From Verrucomicrobia bacterium S94 (GTDB lineage: Bacteria > Verrucomicrobiota > Kiritimatiellia > Kiritimatiellales > Pontiellaceae), in NCBI GenBank assembly GCA_004299845.1, contig CP036201.1:1116001-1180000 (forward strand): DNA of 64,000 bases, written 5' to 3'. This document shows, piece after piece, positions 17,747 through 43,155 of this stretch. Made by a program: the position numbers and the translations under genes. Position 1 is the first letter of the stretch. Each line of letters begins with the position of its first letter. The notes below the pieces were generated by a model, which saw only the letters and a program-made list of their open reading frames with translations, did not search any database and had not been told where the DNA came from.

Positions 17747-18532
17747 TTATCGGAATGCGCGCGGAGAAATGCCGAACGCTTTGCGGATGCACTTGTTGAA
17801 ATACTGGAGATCTGTGAAGCCGCAGTCGATCGCGATGGATTTCACCGGCTGATCGGTTTCGGTTAAAAGGTGTTTTGCCCGGGCCATGCGGCGCTGCCGG
17901 ATATACTCGCTGATGGTGCAGTTCTGATGTTTTCTGAAAAGATGGACAAGATAAGGATGGGAAACGCCGGCGTGTTCCGTCAGTTCAGCTATCCGCAGTG
18001 TATGTTCCAGATTCAGTTCAATGTACTGAATACATTTTTCCAGAGCCGGATGCCGGACACTGTTGCGTTGTTGCTGTTTTATCCATAGCTGTTCAGCATC
18101 CAGCAGCAGGCTCCAGAGTTTCACATCGGCGGCCAGCGGATGGGGGGCGTGGAGGTGGAGCACCTTATGGAGCGCTTCGGAAAATTCCGGATAATGTGCG
18201 CCGGTCGGCATGATTCCGGGAAGGGTCTGGCCGGTAACGGCGGTATCGGTGTCTAACCGGAAATGACAGGCAAGGTGTGTGCCGGTACCGTAAACGGCAT
18301 AAGTAACGGTTTTTCCGGGCGGAATAAATCCGATGTCGCCGGGGTGTACATCAAGGCACCCCTCTTCCATAGTGAGGGTTCCTTCGAAATCATACAGATG
18401 GATGCTCCACAGATTCGGGAGACTGTAGGTTTTATTGTTGTGTTCTTCCGAAACACCGGTGCCGATATAATGACAGACCGGTTTGCCTGTCAGGTTGATT
18501 GACCAGTAGATTCGTTCCATGAATGAATACAT
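17747..18532 (-). CDS. AraC family transcriptional regulator
   Basis: The protein has 261 residues: an N-terminal cupin-like sensing domain (about 1-100, including GCLDVHPGDIGFIPPGKTV) and a C-terminal AraC/XylS DNA-binding domain (about 165-261) with both helix-turn-helix units, ending in DCGFTDLQYFNKCIRKAFG. Such regulators bind a sugar or oligosaccharide and activate catabolic genes. It is transcribed toward the beta-helix gene (stops 7 bases apart) and diverges from the TonB-like gene at 18736. The likely targets are neighbouring glycan genes, but no target site is proven. Start uncertain: the ATG at 18520 is a possible alternative and neither has a strong ribosome site. Confidence 0.93.
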   Translation of the reverse strand: MYSFMERIYWSINLTGKPVCHYIGTGVSEEHNNKTYSLPNLWSIHLYDFEGTLTMEEGCLDVHPGDIGFIPPGKTVTYAVYGTGTHLACHFRLDTDTAVTGQTLPGIMPTGAHYPEFSEALHKVLHLHAPHPLAADVKLWSLLLDAEQLWIKQQQRNSVRHPALEKCIQYIELNLEHTLRIAELTEHAGVSHPYLVHLFRKHQNCTISEYIRQRRMARAKHLLTETDQPVKSIAIDCGFTDLQYFNKCIRKAFGISPRAFR

Positions 18533-18735: not shown

Positions 18736-19845
18736 ATGAGGAAATCAACGCGGGATAAAGGTCGTGGCGTGGTTAAGGGAGCCCCGAGTGGTTTTGTGAT
18801 CAGTATGGCCATTCATGCGGCGGCATTTGCGCTGGCCGGAATGCTGGTGGTTTTCAATGTGGTGAAAAAGGAGGAGAAAAAATTCGTTCCTCCGAAACCG
18901 GTGGACCGCCCGAAGATGAAATTGAAGAAGCCCAAGGTTAAGGTGAAAAAAACATCAAAACCGAGATCTACCACGCGCATAGTGACCAAAGTACAGAAAG
19001 CCAGTATGCCGGATATTCAGCTTCCGGAAATGACCGGAATGGGTGAAGGGCTGGTTGGGGACATCGGCGGTTTTGAAATTACTCCAAACCTGGAGGAAAT
19101 CAGCGTATTCGGGGCCGGTCAGGCCATCGGGAATGATTTTGAAGGGGAGCTTTATCATTTCCGGTACGACAGGCGCGGCGGAAAAATTTCATCCATGGAT
19201 CTGGATCCGTTTTTCGATATCGTGCGTGAATATGCCCGGAAAGGATTTAAAAAATCGGTTTTGGCCCCTTATTACCGATCGGCGAAAAAGCTCTATACGA
19301 CACATTTCATTGTTCCCCAGGTTCCCTCGCGTATGGCACCGGGGCTCTTCGGAGAACCGGATAAGGAAGGCGATTGCTTTTTTGTGAATTACAAGGGAAA
19401 GCTGGTTTATCATGAAGATATAAAGTTTCGTTTCTGGGGTTCCGGCGATGGGTATATCAGTGTTATGGTCGATGGGGAACATGTATTGCTTAACGGGTGG
19501 GATGCGCGCCTTGAGGTTCTGGATTACTGGCAGTCCTCCGACTCGCAGTCCGGTAAGCATTATTGTGTTGGAATGGGTATGGCAGTCGGTGACTGGATTG
19601 AGCTGAAGGCCGGAGAGCCGAAAGATATGGAAATCTTTTTCGGAGAATGGGGCGGCGGCATTATGTCGGCTGCACTGCTGGTGGAAGTTGAAGGGGTTGA
19701 ATATCCGCAGACCAAGTGGGGCGGTCCGTTACTGCCTGCATTCAAGACCGAGGAATTTACTCGCGATCAGCTGGAGGAAATCTACAAATTTCTTCCGCCG
19801 GGTGAGCTGAGTCTTACCAACGGCCCTGTATTCCGGGATTACTGA
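18736..19845 (+). CDS. TonB-like membrane-anchored protein with PA14-like C-terminal domain
   Basis: The protein has 369 residues. A short cytoplasmic N-terminus is followed by one membrane segment (about 19-42, FVISMAIHAAAFALAGMLVV) and a proline/lysine-rich stretch (KKFVPPKPVDRPKMKLKKPK), the layout of TonB. The C-terminal half is not TonB: it has IKFRFWGSGDGYISVMVDGE and further beta-strands like a PA14/carbohydrate-binding fold. No ExbB/ExbD or TonB-dependent receptor is nearby. It is followed after 10 bases by the SHD1-domain gene and clearly forms a pair with it. Function unknown; energy transduction is doubtful because the canonical TonB C-terminal domain is absent. Confidence 0.75.
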   Translation: MRKSTRDKGRGVVKGAPSGFVISMAIHAAAFALAGMLVVFNVVKKEEKKFVPPKPVDRPKMKLKKPKVKVKKTSKPRSTTRIVTKVQKASMPDIQLPEMTGMGEGLVGDIGGFEITPNLEEISVFGAGQAIGNDFEGELYHFRYDRRGGKISSMDLDPFFDIVREYARKGFKKSVLAPYYRSAKKLYTTHFIVPQVPSRMAPGLFGEPDKEGDCFFVNYKGKLVYHEDIKFRFWGSGDGYISVMVDGEHVLLNGWDARLEVLDYWQSSDSQSGKHYCVGMGMAVGDWIELKAGEPKDMEIFFGEWGGGIMSAALLVEVEGVEYPQTKWGGPLLPAFKTEEFTRDQLEEIYKFLPPGELSLTNGPVFRDY

Positions 19846-19855
19846 GGAGGTCACG

Positions 19856-20599
19856 ATGAAATCTGTTATACTGTCTCTGGTCCTTGTTTTCTTCGCTGCG
19901 GGGAATGTGTCGGCAGGAGAAATCCGGATGTGGACGCTGAACAGCGGAAAAACCGTCGAGGCGGAATTTGTTTCGCTGATCGGAGGAAAAATCGCCCTGA
20001 AAACGCCCGGAGGAAAGCTACTGAAAATTCCGGAGAACGGAATATCTCCGGATGACCTGAGCTATATTGAACTGCAGAATCCACCCCGGCTCGATTTTTC
20101 TTTTTCCAAAATGACCCGGCAGCATGTCTATGCTCCGCTCACGGAATGGTTTGAAAATGACACTCCGCCGCCGCGCTCTCTCTATTACACTTTTTCCACA
20201 CAGATCAGACAGCTTTCTCCCAATCCGTATAATCACGAATTAACTGCTGAAATTTTTGTTATGGCGGCCGAAGTGGACGGGGATAAGAATATTCTGATCG
20301 ATTACCGGAAGGAACCGTTCCGTTTAACCGATGAAAACGGACGGGTTGTTAATATTCCCGGAGTTCAGGAGGTTATGCTGACAAGTTATCTGGCACCGGG
20401 CGGTATGTGGAGAGGGGAAAAATTTGCCGGTTATCTGATCGTCGTGACCGATACGCGGGGTGAAATTATCGCTCATACCGAGACTCGGGAATGGTGGTTT
20501 GAAAAACTCGAAAATCTGAGGAAAGTGCCGGTCGGTAAAACCTTCGATAAAGAAGGTAATCGTTGCTGGCCCACCCGCCCCAAAGAATCCGACTATTAA
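19856..20599 (+). CDS. Secreted SHD1-domain protein
   Basis: The protein has 247 residues with signal peptide (MKSVILSLVLVFFAAGNVSA). Residues about 22-72 (RMWTLNSGKTVEAEFVSL, LKTPGGKLLKIPENGISPDD, YI) form an SHD1 (SLA1 homology domain 1) unit, a small beta domain frequent in Planctomycetes and Verrucomicrobiota. The rest is a beta-rich domain of unknown family. It follows the TonB-like/PA14 gene by 10 bases with an AGGAGG ribosome site, and a terminator closes the pair. The two probably act together at the cell envelope; no enzymatic role is visible. Confidence 0.8.
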   Translation: MKSVILSLVLVFFAAGNVSAGEIRMWTLNSGKTVEAEFVSLIGGKIALKTPGGKLLKIPENGISPDDLSYIELQNPPRLDFSFSKMTRQHVYAPLTEWFENDTPPPRSLYYTFSTQIRQLSPNPYNHELTAEIFVMAAEVDGDKNILIDYRKEPFRLTDENGRVVNIPGVQEVMLTSYLAPGGMWRGEKFAGYLIVVTDTRGEIIAHTETREWWFEKLENLRKVPVGKTFDKEGNRCWPTRPKESDY

Positions 20600-20622
20600 C
20601 GGGCTGATGAGTTTCGGGTTTA

Positions 20623-20649
20623 AAAGCGTCCTTAAAGGGCGCTTTTTTT
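20623..20649 (+). terminator. Rho-independent terminator
   Basis: Nine-base-pair stem AAAGCGTCC / GGGCGCTTT (one G-T pair) with a 5-base loop, followed by a T run to 20649. It ends the TonB-like/SHD1 pair. Confidence 0.85.
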
Positions 20650-23204: not shown

Positions 23205-23967
23205 ATGAAGCAGATCGCTGCGATGATCGGGGGAATGCTGTCTATAGCGGCTGTGTGTTCTGCTGTGGTGCAGCCCAACGTGATTATTGTCATTACAGAT
23301 GATCAGGGGTACGGCGATTTGAGCTGTCATGGCAATCCGGTCGTAAAAACACCGAACATCGATAAGCTGTATGAACAGTCGGTCCGTTTTGCCGATTTTC
23401 ATGCGGATCCGACCTGTGCTCCGACGAGAGCGGCATTGCTGACCGGGAAATATTCCCATCATGTCAAGGGATGGCATACCATTGCGGAAGGGAATTATCC
23501 TCGTGTTTATGAGGTGACGATGACGGATCTGTTTAAGGCTGCCGGTTACCGCACCGGATTATTCGGGAGATGGTATTTGGGGGCCAATTATCCGTATCGT
23601 CCGATGGACCGCGGTTTTGATGAACGGCTGGGGCAGGAGGGTGACGGCGGAACGGGGATGACTGATGACTGGTTTGATAATGATCGTGTGAATGATATGT
23701 ACTGGCATAACGGTGAACGCGAGCGGCGTGAAGGCTATGCACCCGATGTGTTTTTTGATGCCGCCATTGATTCCATCGTGGAAAAGAGGAAACAGCCGTT
23801 TTTTGTGTGTCTTGCCACCTGTCTGCCGCATGAACCGCATACCGTTCCGGACCGGGTGATGCTTTCTGCATATAAGAGTATTGTTTCTGATTACGAAGGG
23901 GCTTCTGCTGGACGAAGTCGGGCAGACGCCGGCCGGTGCATATTATATCTATGTCCACCGGAAATAA
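23205..23967 (+). pseudogene. S1 sulfatase with internal deletion
   Basis: A normal sulfatase N-terminus begins at 23205: signal peptide, DDQGYGDLSCHG, modification motif C-A-P-T-R (Cys71), and a degenerate GRWYLG where GKWHLG is expected (the Lys and His are both changed). After about residue 225 (HEPHTVPDRVMLSAYKS) the reading frame becomes nonsense and closes at 23981. In the +1 frame, bases 23900-23967 read LLLDEVGQTPAGAYYIYVHRK and stop; this resembles the natural C-terminal end of arylsulfatase A-type enzymes (G-A-Y-Y-V-Y-V). So the middle and most of the C-terminal domain are gone. The product is not expected to be active. Confidence 0.85.
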
Positions 23968-24045
23968 GAGTGGAAGCGTAAGCGAAAAAAGTAAACAGGA
24001 GCAGGGCCCGGGGTTTTGCTGAAGGGTCTGAACAGAGGATAATCA

Positions 24046-28605: not shown

Positions 28606-30959
28606 ATGAACTGTAGAAAAATCGTTTCATTGAACGGCGATTGGAAATTTATTAAAGAGGATATTTCCGGAGCGGAGGCGGCGGCTTTTGATGATGCTTC
28701 GTGGCGTACTGTGAAAGTGCCGCATGACTGGAGTGTTGAGGAGTCGTTTTCGGAAAAATGGGAAGGCGCAACCGGTTATCTCCCGGGCGGTATCGGCTGG
28801 TACCGTAAAACATTCCAGGCTCTGGACAGGGAGGTGACCTATCTCCATTTTGATGGGATCTATAACAATGCGACGGTGTATCTTAACGGAGAGAAGCTGG
28901 GCGACCACCCGTATGGTTATTCGCCGTTTTATTATGATATTTCCGATAAGGTGAAAAGCGGTGGAAACGTGCTTGCTGTTCGGGTTGATCATTCGCGTTA
29001 TTGTGACAGTCGCTGGTATACCGGTTCAGGCATTTATCGCAGTGCCGAACTGATCGGCACCTCCGGAACGCATATTCCGGTTTGGGGCACCTTCATCACT
29101 ACGCCCGAAGTGCTGGAGGATCGGGCAACGGTCCGGGTGCAGGTGGAGATTTGTGAACCGGTCGGGGCTGTGCTGACTACGGCCATTCTGGATCCTGATG
29201 GCGAGCGTGTGGCGGAAGTTTCTGCGCAGGCGGAGGCGAGCACCATTCAGACGTTGGAAATTTCCAATCCCCGTAAATGGGATGTTGAATGTCCCAATCT
29301 TTATACGGCGGTAACAACGGTTTCCAGAGATGGAAAAGAAGTCGATGAAACCACTACGCTATTCGGTATCCGTTCTATCCGGTTTGATGCGGATGAAGGA
29401 TTTTTTCTGAATGGAAAGAATATGAAGATCAAAGGCGTATGCCTGCATCACGATGGAGGGTGCGTGGGTGCCGCTGTGCCGAAGGATGTCTGGCGGCGGC
29501 GTTTTGAAACACTGAAACGGGGGGATGTAATGCGATTCGAATTGCGCATAATCCGGGCTCCAGTGAATTCCTTGATCTCTGCGATGAAATGGGTTTTCTG
29601 GTACAGGATGAATTTTTTGATGAATGGGATAATCCCAAGGATAAACGCCGGAATCAGAATGAGCAGCATGATGATTATATCTCCAGAGGATACTGCGAGC
29701 ATTTTCAGCAATGGGCGGAAACGGACCTGAAAGCGGTCATTCGTGCGCATCGGAATCATCCTTCCATATTCCAGTGGAGTATCGGTAATGAAATTGAGTG
29801 GACCTATCCGCGCAATGCCGAGGCCACCGGTTTCTTCAATATGGGTTGGGAAGGGAATTATTTCTGGGAGCTTCCTCCGAATTCCATTGAAGAGATAAAA
29901 CGGTTGCTGAACGAGTTGCCGCGCGGTGAATATGATGTCGGCGAAACCGCTCAGAAACTGGCGAAATGGACCCGGGAGATGGATACGAGCCGCCCGGTCA
30001 TTGCCAACTGTATTCTTCCTTCGTCCAGTTATGAATCGGGCTATGCCGATGCGCTGGACGTGATCGGTTTCAGTTATCGCCGCGTCATGTATGATTACGG
30101 GCATGAGCATTATCCGGATCTTCCATTGATGGGGACGGAAAACCTGGGTCAGTGGCATGAGTGGAAGGCGATTGAAGAGCGTCCGTTTGTTCCCGGCACC
30201 TTTCTTTGGACCGGCATCGACTATATGGGTGAAGTAAACGGACAGTGGCCCAAAAATACGCTGGATTCCGGTCTGCTGGATCGTGCGGGTTTTGAGAAGG
30301 GCTCTTTTCATATGATGAAGACGCTGTGGTGTGATGAGCCGCATGTGCATCTGACTACCCAGACACTGGAAAAGTCGCCGTATGTTTTTGATGCGTCGAC
30401 CGGATTCATCGGTGAAGAGGATTCCGAGGCCTGGAAGCAGAAACTCTGGATCTGGCATGATGTGAATACCCATTGGAATTATACCGAGGGTGAAATGATC
30501 GCCGTTGAGGTGTATTCCAACTGTGAATCGGTGGAACTGTTTCTTAACGGGGAGTCGATGGGTAAAAAGAAGCTGTCTGATTTTGAAGATCATATCTACA
30601 AATGGGCGGTTCCGTATAAGCCGGGCAAACTCGAAGCGTGTGCGGAGGGGGCATCGGATCAGCTGGAGACCGCGGGTGTTCCTGCCGCGGTTCAGCTTTG
30701 TGCCGATGGAATGCATGTGATTGCCCAGCTGGTTGATGAGTCGGGGGTACCGGTGAAATCCGAGGAACGGGAGATTTCGTTTGTTGTTGAAGGCGGCAGG
30801 ATGCTCGGTGTGGATAATGGTTCGCCGTTCAGTATACAGGATTATCAGTCGGACCGTATAACCACCGCGAAAGGACGCTGTCTGCTGGTGGTGGAGAGGG
30901 GTTGTAAAGTTTCGGCGGCCGCAGATGGGCTCGCCGGGGCGGCTGTGGAGATGGAGTAA
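28606..30959 (+). CDS. GH2 beta-galactosidase, reading frame broken by one base
   Basis: The N-terminal part (28606-about 29520) has the GH2 sugar-binding domain ([49 protein letters not shown]) and the immunoglobulin-like domain. The C-terminal part (to 30959) has the barrel: acid/base Glu in WSIGNEIEW (bases 29790-29792) and nucleophile Glu in MGTENLG (30138-30140), then late domains. The frame changes at a run of six G (29519-29524); a seventh G restores the text [16 protein letters not shown]. This is either a sequence error or a recent mutation; everything else is intact. There is no signal peptide, so the enzyme is cytoplasmic and would remove galactose from imported oligosaccharides. 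Its stop overlaps the GH50 start (TAATG). Confidence 0.85.
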
Positions 30960-41820: not shown

Positions 41821-43155
41821 ATGATGAGAGGGATCTCTCGTAAAGGATTTTTAAAAACGGCTGTTCTTGCGGGGGGCGCCATCGGGTTTCCCGCGGTTGT
41901 TCCGTCTGCCGTGCTCGGGAAAAACGGCAGTGTTTCGCCGAGTAACCGGATTACGGTCGGGCTGATTGGCTGCGGCCGGCGCAGCGGTGTCGGCGGCGAA
42001 TACAACATGGTCAGGCAGTCAAAGCTGCTGGCGGTATGTGATCCGGTAAAATGGCGTCGTGAAGCCAGTGCCGCGGAGTGGAACGTTCCTGATGCCCATA
42101 ACGATTTCAGAGATGTTCTCGCACGGGATGATATTGATGCGGTCCACATTGTAACACCGGATCACTGGCACGTACCGATAGCACTGATGGCCGCGCGGGC
42201 CGGCAAGGATATGTATGTGGAAAAGCCGCTGAGTCTCTGTATCGGTCAGAGCCTGGCGGCCCGGGAAATCACAGAAAAGCACGGCCGCGTTTTTCAGTAC
42301 GGCACGCAGCAGCGTTCAATGCGCCATTTACGGATGGGCATCGAAATTGTGCTGAACGGGCATATCGGCAACGTGAAAGAGGTATATGTGTGGTGTCCGG
42401 GCGGGGCCAAAGGCGGTTCAGCGACCCCGGAACTTCCGGTGCCGGAAGGATTTGATTATGAACTCTGGACCGGTCCGGCACCGATGAAACCGTTCTGTGA
42501 AGACCGCTGCAGCCCGCACGGTCCGCCGAAGGCCACCTATTTCTGCTATGATTATTCCATCGGAATGCTGGGCGGCTGGGGCGCCCATCCGGTGGATCAA
42601 TTGCAATGGTGGGCCGATGCTGAAAACAAGGGCATTCCGGTTGAATATAAAACGACCGGTTCCCTGCCGACGGAAGGGCTATTCAATACGGTGGTGACCT
42701 GGCAGATGGAAGCAACCTATGCCGACGGCACCAAACTTTATTTTATGGATTCAAAAACGGCGCGAGCGTCGCAGGAGATTCCCGGTATTGAAAAACTGAA
42801 GCAGTTTGGAAACTGTACGGTGTTTGTAGGTGAAGAGGGCTGGGTGGCGGTTTCGCGCGAGGGTATGCTGGCTTCAACCGAAGCGCTTCGGCGCAAGGCG
42901 AAAGATCCGGGGCCCCGTAAACTGCAGGAGAGCAGCTGGCATCCGATTGCTTTTGTGGATGCTATTCGTAACGGAACACAGCCCGTGTCATCTCTCGATT
43001 CAGCCATTCGTTCCGACATCATTTGTCACATGGGTGATCTTTGTGTTCGTACAGGGAAAACCCTGGGTTGGGACGCACAGAAGGAGATGGTGACCGGCTC
43101 GGCTGAGGCCGTAAAAATGATGCATCGGACGATGCGCGATCCCTGGACACTGTAA
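41821..43155 (+). CDS. Gfo/Idh/MocA-family oxidoreductase, exported
   Basis: The protein has 444 residues with a Tat-like leader ([18 protein letters not shown]; an R-K pair, not R-R). The Rossmann motif [14 protein letters not shown] is followed by [26 protein letters not shown] and YVEKPLSL, the conserved E-K-P substrate/cofactor motif. Members use NAD(P) to oxidise or epimerise sugars; some (GH109) are NAD-dependent glycosidases. It opens an operon with ThuA, a second Gfo protein, a GH86-like protein and a DUF1593 protein. A folded, cofactor-loaded exported oxidoreductase is consistent with Tat export. The substrate is unknown. Confidence 0.88.

Follow-up and report, generated by a model that had tools for sequence, protein, structure and literature searches.

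Two adjoining genes of Verrucomicrobia bacterium S94 raise the question of what a membrane anchor built on the plan of TonB can do when it ends in a PA14-like head and is paired with an SHD1 protein. The genes, which encode protein 1 and protein 2, lie within positions 1116001-1180000 of the S94 assembly, a single contig (CP036201.1) of 4,107,983 bases; this whole stretch of 64,000 bases is referred to here as the window. A first-pass annotation, made from the letters alone, had proposed that the two proteins could hold or sense glycans at the cell envelope. The analysis described here indicates instead that the pair is probably the split form of a TonB/TolA-like force transducer, driven by the proton motive force (PMF) and carrying a PA14-SHD1 head, of which many paralogues share a few motors. 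Throughout, L numbers denote stretches of DNA and G numbers denote genomes.

Domain plan of the pair and the SxxxH signature

The two open reading frames (ORFs) were divided as follows, in window coordinates, using AlphaFold 2 (AF2) models, the family alignment, Pfam and fold matches.

18736..19845, + strand: protein 1 gene, ORF of 369 aa with transmembrane helix (18-38), linker (39-118) and PA14 head (~119-369)
18787..18849, + strand: transmembrane helix, codons 18-38, with SxxxH as S23/H27 (AF2 and family alignment)
18850..19089, + strand: linker, codons 39-118
19090..19842, + strand: PA14 head, codons 119-369, with a variable loop at 255-282 (AF2 and fold match)
19856..20599, + strand: protein 2 gene, ORF of 247 aa with a signal-peptide-like stretch, SHD1 and a beta-rich domain
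Protein 2 before residue ~22, + strand: hydrophobic, signal-peptide-like N-terminus, judged by eye
Protein 2 residues ~22-75, + strand: SHD1 (Pfam E 7.9e-9 and fold match)
Protein 2 residues ~76-228, + strand: beta-rich domain (AF2)

The AF2 model of protein 1, built on a 59-row alignment (mean predicted local distance difference test score, pLDDT, 83.3), consisted of a single helix at residues 18-38, a disordered stretch to ~118 and a folded domain at ~119-369, the head, with pLDDT mostly >90. The 80-residue linker contains 16 Lys and 9 Pro, that is, more Lys than Pro. A single N-terminal transmembrane helix with SxxxH, followed by a disordered, Pro-rich periplasmic linker, is the arrangement of TonB/TolA-type transducers. 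In full-length family members, the residue corresponding to position 23 of the window copy is Ser in 82/83 and that at position 27 is His in 83/83, both inside the predicted helix. The corresponding residues of the TonB motif are S16 and H20, and the spacing in the family equals that of the TonB/TolA motif. Mean pairwise identity was 0.62 in the helix and 0.65 in linker block 41-72, the best conserved segment measured, compared with 0.46 in the PA14 head, 0.25 in the head loop 255-282, 0.38 in SHD1 and 0.34 in the beta-rich domain of protein 2. As the helix and first linker block are better conserved than the head and protein 2, the family appears to combine a shared stem with heads that diverge.

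The head of protein 1 has the beta-sandwich of the PA14 superfamily. Foldseek matched it to the PA14 sugar-binding domain 6m8m (E 6.6e-7, target template modelling (TM) score 0.64, root-mean-square deviation (rmsd) 5.7), and in a VIA comparison a PA14 sugar-binding domain was the best match (Z 12.3, rmsd 3.3, 163 residues aligned). At the level of sequence, protein 1 had no Pfam match at E<=1, and neither protein matched any NCBIfam family. No TonB match was obtained from Pfam or NCBIfam and no vWA match from Pfam, and the C-terminal head was modelled as PA14 in place of either domain; with TonB_C missing, a true TonB is ruled out. Among PDB sequences there was no convincing relative, the best hit being an antibody chain at E 0.049. 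The Pfam PA14 cut-off of 24 bits was, however, passed by four of ten scanned homologue or neighbour proteins (L161 34.7, L167 25.8, L170 24.7 and L184 24.6), others scoring below it (L168 21.2, L158 18.1, L160 15.3) and the L187 protein having no Pfam PA14 match. The label 'PA14-like' is therefore considered right, since the modelled head matches PA14 folds and these four proteins exceed the cut-off.

A sugar-binding fold is what a passive anchor would be expected to carry, such an anchor being a lectin of the inner membrane, partnered by an SHD1 protein and not energised. Many members keep an Asp-Asp pair, which may correspond to that of the sugar/calcium site of PA14 lectins, at window-copy positions 238/239 (D238 in 53/59 rows, D239 in 29/59, both in 26/59); the window copy itself reads D238-G239, and Gly at the second Asp position may speak against such a role. 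The fold matches also bear on another idea. The structure 6qdi, titled anti-sigma factor domain-containing protein, was among the best for the head (Z 11.7) and an AraC-family gene diverges from the pair, so that the PA14 ectodomain could be the sensor of a transmembrane signalling protein, like clostridial anti-sigma-factor-type proteins. Only 17 residues precede the helix, however, and the missing cytoplasmic domain largely refutes this reading, which is very improbable.

The AF2 model of protein 2 had a mean pLDDT of 91.3. Its SHD1 aligned with that of Sla1 (2hbp; Z 9.5, rmsd 1.4, 57 residues aligned), in agreement with the Pfam match. The beta-rich domain gave weak fold matches only. One of these was Amuc_1102, at a Foldseek E of 4e-5 but with a TM score of 0.23 and rmsd 12.9 (VIA Z 6.9, rmsd 7.5); with such values kinship is a lead only. 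The structural claims of the first-pass annotation thus stood: a TonB-like N-terminal plan (helix 18-38, then a disordered stretch containing Lys and Pro), a PA14-like head instead of the TonB domain, an SHD1 partner, and a layout of two + strand genes separated by a 10-base gap; GAGGAGGTCACG lies upstream of the protein 2 start.

One unit in split and fused forms

A sequence search of the S94 genome found protein 1 in nine copies, of which six share an ORF with a protein 2 half (L003-L008), one is frameshifted and two are split (the window copy and L002). The search returned 11 rows, the two additional ones being the remainder of the frameshifted copy and L011, which matched over residues 17-127 only. 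The frameshifted copy, at 41930-43041, is a tandem one and occupies two overlapping ORFs (L023 10874-12831, ~41.9-43.8 kb).

The S94 genome itself excluded, a family match (E<=1e-3) was found in 33/39 relatives, with up to 32 matches per genome when fragments and vWA-type stems are counted in. Fusion was scored in 86 sequences, namely 79 loci, six S94 stretches and the window; the 79 loci were kept from 101 confirmed stretches, and all are from Kiritimatiellales-group or Verrucomicrobia records. Both halves were matched by 65 ORFs. Protein 1 alone was matched by 35, of which 11 were partial, 2 lay at a contig end and 22 could be scored; in 18 of these 22 the protein 2 gene is directly downstream on the same strand. 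In L069 and L112 a protein 2 gene flanks the protein 1 gene at its other side and has the opposite orientation. On a 90-row tree, made by the 'quick' method only, the fused and split states changed 9 times, at least 4 of the changes being forced by starred branches. The number was 8 without L062_9, a contig-end fragment scored as split, and 6 when three rows lacking a downstream SHD1 gene were also dropped.

The gene pair is thus the split form of a unit that many relatives encode as one protein. The nine S94 copies, six of them fused, and the conserved pairing in relatives rule out a chance juxtaposition of the two genes, and the survey bears out the conserved SHD1 pairing anticipated from the window alone.

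Linkage to ExbB-ExbD-ExbD motors

In six loci of relatives (L062, L079, L085, L122, L131 and L138) a profile scan placed the family gene directly behind the ExbD gene of a TPR-ExbB-ExbD operon, with one ExbD within the scanned reach in L062. By Pfam, L079 has TPR and MotA_ExbB, and L085 has two ExbD matches. The operon order in relatives is TPR-x-ExbB-ExbD-ExbD. At least 11 family matches in at least 10 of the 39 relatives start <=40 bases behind a same-strand ExbD gene (G006, G011, G013, G020, G024, G027, G028 twice, G030, G037 and G038). In G028 the PA14 type stands behind two motors (L191 and L192), and in G027, G030 and G038 the single family match is the motor-linked one. The second ExbD of the operon (E<=1e-38) was present in 26 of the 27 relatives whose family match reached E<=1e-50, G007 being the exception, compared with 4 of the 12 remaining relatives (G003, G016, G021 and G023).

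A search of the phylum found family matches in 93/387 genomes, and 20 stretches (L158-L177) were taken around members outside the well-matched set. Outside the order, the gene is directly behind a motor in L160 and L161 (whole operon in both) and in L174 (ExbB-ExbD-ExbD, no TPR gene seen). A vWA gene separates motor and PA14 gene in L170; a divergent member lies one gene from the TPR gene of a motor in L159, L188 covering the remainder of that motor; and an ExbB-ExbD pair lies 7.7 kb from the member in L168. The remaining stretches, a few of them short, gave no motor profile match. In stretches chosen for ExbB, a PA14 member comes second behind a motor, after a squalene-cyclase-like protein (L184), and a divergent member stands beside a TPR gene (L187).

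A second type of protein shares the N-terminal module. L011 of S94 (453 aa) is 45% identical to protein 1 over residues 17-127 and has a different head; proteins of this type are labelled vWA-like here. Their Pfam VWA_3 matches were all below the cut-off (L079 3.1e-4, L088 1e-3, L196 1e-3) and no vWA match was obtained for L029, L132, L197 or either L193 gene, the cut-off being passed by L170 and L185, members of a wider group. The vWA-like genes stand in the same operons as the PA14 type, or beside it. L193 of G028 has TPR-x-ExbB-ExbD-ExbD followed by two vWA-like genes (E 1e-65 with the profile of this analysis), and in L196, L197 and L198 a vWA-like gene adjoins a fused PA14-type one, 2-3 ORFs from the TPR end of the motor. 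The available part of Williams-Jones et al. 2025 (PMC12204202) describes vWA force transducers, found via Tichowtungia aerotolerans, whose genes follow a TPR gene, a tolQ-like gene and a pair of tolR-like genes in the operon; the proteins carry an SHLS motif, and a conserved His is predicted to mediate docking. The vWA-like type is likely the same family.

Some further arrangements were observed. Squalene-cyclase/prenyltransferase-type proteins at motors may be a third head type (L184 6919-8556, L181 10626-12287, L180 11591-13396); the match is above the cut-off in L184 and below it in L180 and L181, and the L181 protein has an SxxxH helix. L171 (8358-12709) holds tandem PA14-type, vWA-like (below cut-off) and PA14-type genes in one Verrucomicrobiota genome. 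In L170 (7229-10241) a SAM domain precedes the helix in both the motor-linked vWA and PA14 transducers.

One interpretation of these data, and the one preferred here, is that protein 1 would be anchored in the inner membrane by its one helix, the Ser and His of which would dock on an ExbB-ExbD-ExbD motor whose genes lie at another place in the genome. The linker would span the periplasm, and the PA14 head, to which the SHD1 protein would add a second, detachable half, would grip a periplasmic or outer membrane target on which the motor would then pull. Many paralogous heads may share a few motors; S94 has nine copies and three TPR-x-ExbB-ExbD-ExbD operons (L140, L141 and L144) in which ExbD is not followed by a transducer gene. 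The TPR part of L144 is two ORFs, and trpA comes next after the L141 motor, as it does after the L196 motor. L196, L197 and L198, all Pontiellaceae, have three or four ExbD genes per motor operon instead of two. Around the motors of G022, G005 and G019 (L194, L195, L200) there was no family match within the stretch taken. On the tree the motor-linked state (8/84 rows) changed 4 times, and the motor-linked L062_8 groups with the window copy, so that either the place in the operon has been taken by different paralogues or copies have departed from it on more than one occasion.

Several observations weigh against this interpretation. The place behind ExbB and ExbD, or behind TPR, tolQ-like and two tolR-like genes, was found in relatives, not at the window; no S94 copy is linked to ExbB/ExbD, and the 14 MotA_ExbB matches of S94 are all >=72 kb from the nine family copies. 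Dispersed copies might serve something that no longer needs a motor, and because one copy is frameshifted the S94 copies need not all work. No outer membrane partner was found. Among phylum-wide homologues SxxxH is present in only 15/28 members; it is lacking in six members of an Akkermansia-like genus, in L162, L172 and L173 and in the motor-linked L174. The L176 member has TxxxH, and two L167 members are apparently secreted, with no membrane helix. As SxxxH is missing in so many of these members, motor coupling, if right, would not be valid for the whole PA14 group.

The absence of ExbB near the S94 copies is also what a passive anchor would predict. The first-pass annotation, which favoured such an anchor, had noted no ExbB/ExbD or receptor; this is correct locally, as the window has none, and does not extend to the genome, which has 14 MotA_ExbB and 5 Plug matches. 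The passive glycan-holding or sensing role itself was not supported, as it leaves unexplained the retention of SxxxH, the place of the gene behind ExbB-ExbD-ExbD and the N-terminal module shared with the vWA-like type.

Gene neighbourhoods, possible cargo and known systems

As a first guess, the target of the putative transducer is a glycan, or else an outer membrane complex bound to a glycan. Proximity to sulfatase genes was measured in S94 for seven loci, with tandem copies counted as one locus, against 76/81 Sulfatase matches, a gene matched in two pieces being counted once. A sulfatase lies within 5 kb of 4/7 loci, within 10 kb of 5/7 and within 20 kb of 6/7, against 1.0, 1.6 and 2.3 expected (rotation P 0.026, 0.027 and 0.023, respectively; free placement P 0.006 at 10 kb). 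In G028, from 136/138 Sulfatase matches and 7 of 10 family matches, two of the seven motor-linked, the counts were 1, 2 and 4 of 7 copies among the matches listed, compared with 1.7, 2.45 and 3.3 expected. With these counts, a link to glycan loci for each and every copy was rejected.

Adjoining genes were surveyed among 101 eligible ORFs <=600 bases from a family ORF, six motor-linked loci being excluded; 93 were drawn at random, one vWA-like row was dropped and 92 were scanned, the best 25 of 126 families being viewed. Pfam, used without a comparison set, found Sulfatase in 10/92 adjoining proteins and AraC-type helix-turn-helix (HTH) domains in 4/92, and among the matches listed, glycoside hydrolases, sugar transporters, sensors and some further families each had 2-3. 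Association of the family with glycan genes is thus weak. The sulfatases near five of the seven S94 loci and in the survey would suit a passive anchor; the G028 result and the motor linkage described above would not, and that reading is considered unlikely.

Some other neighbourhoods are of a housekeeping kind. L061, a near relative of the window copy, adjoins lyase, HydF and radical-SAM genes (Pfam), and L063, another near relative, has the same neighbours as judged by gene order and likeness of sequence starts; the short L032 stretch holds fragments of the L061-type neighbours. The S94 copy in L025 is flanked by tatC-type and homoserine dehydrogenase genes. The L064 copy adjoins a large Sortilin/BNR-type protein. 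The choice between glycan and housekeeping neighbours, which the first-pass annotation had set as the test of its proposal, therefore gave a mixed answer: sulfatases are enriched in S94 and not in G028, and the nearest relatives of the window copy stand beside hydrogenase-maturation genes. The L061 and L025 settings, and the three genomes whose one match is motor-linked, would suit motor coupling for envelope upkeep, such as Tol-Pal-like tethering or wall work, and not for nutrient uptake, which is a sub-case of the transducer reading with another cargo. It is possible, if on the doubtful side, as the many matches per genome and the variable head loop fit many targets better. A bolder form of the transducer reading, put forward tentatively and rather improbable as a whole, is that a few TPR-ExbB-ExbD-ExbD motors of the Pontiellaceae drive dozens of interchangeable PA14-SHD1 heads, each with its own sulfated polysaccharide, or the outer membrane complex of that polysaccharide, to grip, and with PMF-powered import replacing SusC/TonB in these polysaccharide degraders.

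Around the pair, two further features were located.

17747..18532, - strand: divergent AraC-family regulator (Pfam HTH_18 E 9.6e-24)
20622..20649, + strand: intrinsic-terminator-type hairpin with U-run, 11 pairs, by RNA folding

Both had been noted in the first-pass annotation and were recovered here. The 58-base terminator stretch is more stably folded than shuffles (z -2.33); a simple terminator scan did not list the hairpin, although folding revealed it. An adjacent AraC-type regulator is not general for the family, HTH_18 accounting for the 4/92 adjoining proteins given above. None of the five Plug matches to TonB-dependent receptors lies inside the window, which is therefore not a SusC/SusD-type polysaccharide utilization locus. 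Elsewhere in the window, a 258 aa Sulfatase ORF at 23205-23981 covers only model positions 1-185 of 301, and is thus a shortened or broken gene. At 28606-30959 an overlapping ORF pair has GH2 N-terminal domains in the first ORF and the C-terminal domains in the second, where the TIM-barrel match is shortened, indicating a broken GH2 gene.

With TonB and TolA the family shares topology, SxxxH in the helix, the linker and, in relatives, ExbB-ExbD linkage; it differs in having neither a TonB_C domain nor a receptor gene in its vicinity. PA14 sugar-binding domains (6m8m, the Marinomonas primoryensis PA14 6x7j and others) have the same fold, with Z 11-12, whereas protein 1 is anchored in the inner membrane and has Gly in place of the second Asp.

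Mucin utilization loci of Akkermansia, reportedly described by Davey et al. in 2023, offer another comparison. G145 has an ExbB-ExbD-ExbD cluster and a TPR gene within 636-656 kb (L178), a likeness in gene content, but the PA14 members of the Akkermansia-like genus lack SxxxH. In the available parts of two further studies, Verrucomicrobiota are described as accumulating glycans within their periplasm, a process that depends on mul genes in Akkermansia, these genes being tied to glycan accumulation (PMC12418764, PMC13174399). The available part of the second describes MUL1 as Sus-like and reports no MUL1 synteny in aquatic Akkermansiaceae (PMC13174399), which argues against a simple link of the PA14 family to that locus. 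Periplasmic glycan accumulation, as presented in those parts, is nevertheless a setting in which a PA14-SHD1 transducer would make sense. In polysaccharide degraders for which the route of uptake is unclear, PA14-type transducers would form large sets of paralogues, and large-glycan uptake by such Verrucomicrobiota becomes testable by single-residue exchange and by deletion of a motor operon.

The closest counterparts are the vWA force transducers. Literature searches on PA14 with TonB, ExbB, ExbD or force transducer, and on SHD1 with Planctomycetes, yielded only PMC12204202 as relevant, in the main text of which 'PA14' occurs 0 times. Within the literature searched, with most subscription journals outside its scope, a PA14(-SHD1) head on a force transducer was not found in print, so that the description of the pair as new holds to that extent. 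As far as the available part of that article goes, the vWA transducers have the same motor operon order (PMC12204202), and vWA-like genes occur in the same operons here; the present family differs in its PA14 head, with or without SHD1, and in its many paralogues, mostly away from the motor. PA14, often combined with SHD1, would thus be a second head type among the force transducers lacking a TonB domain, a class proposed only recently.
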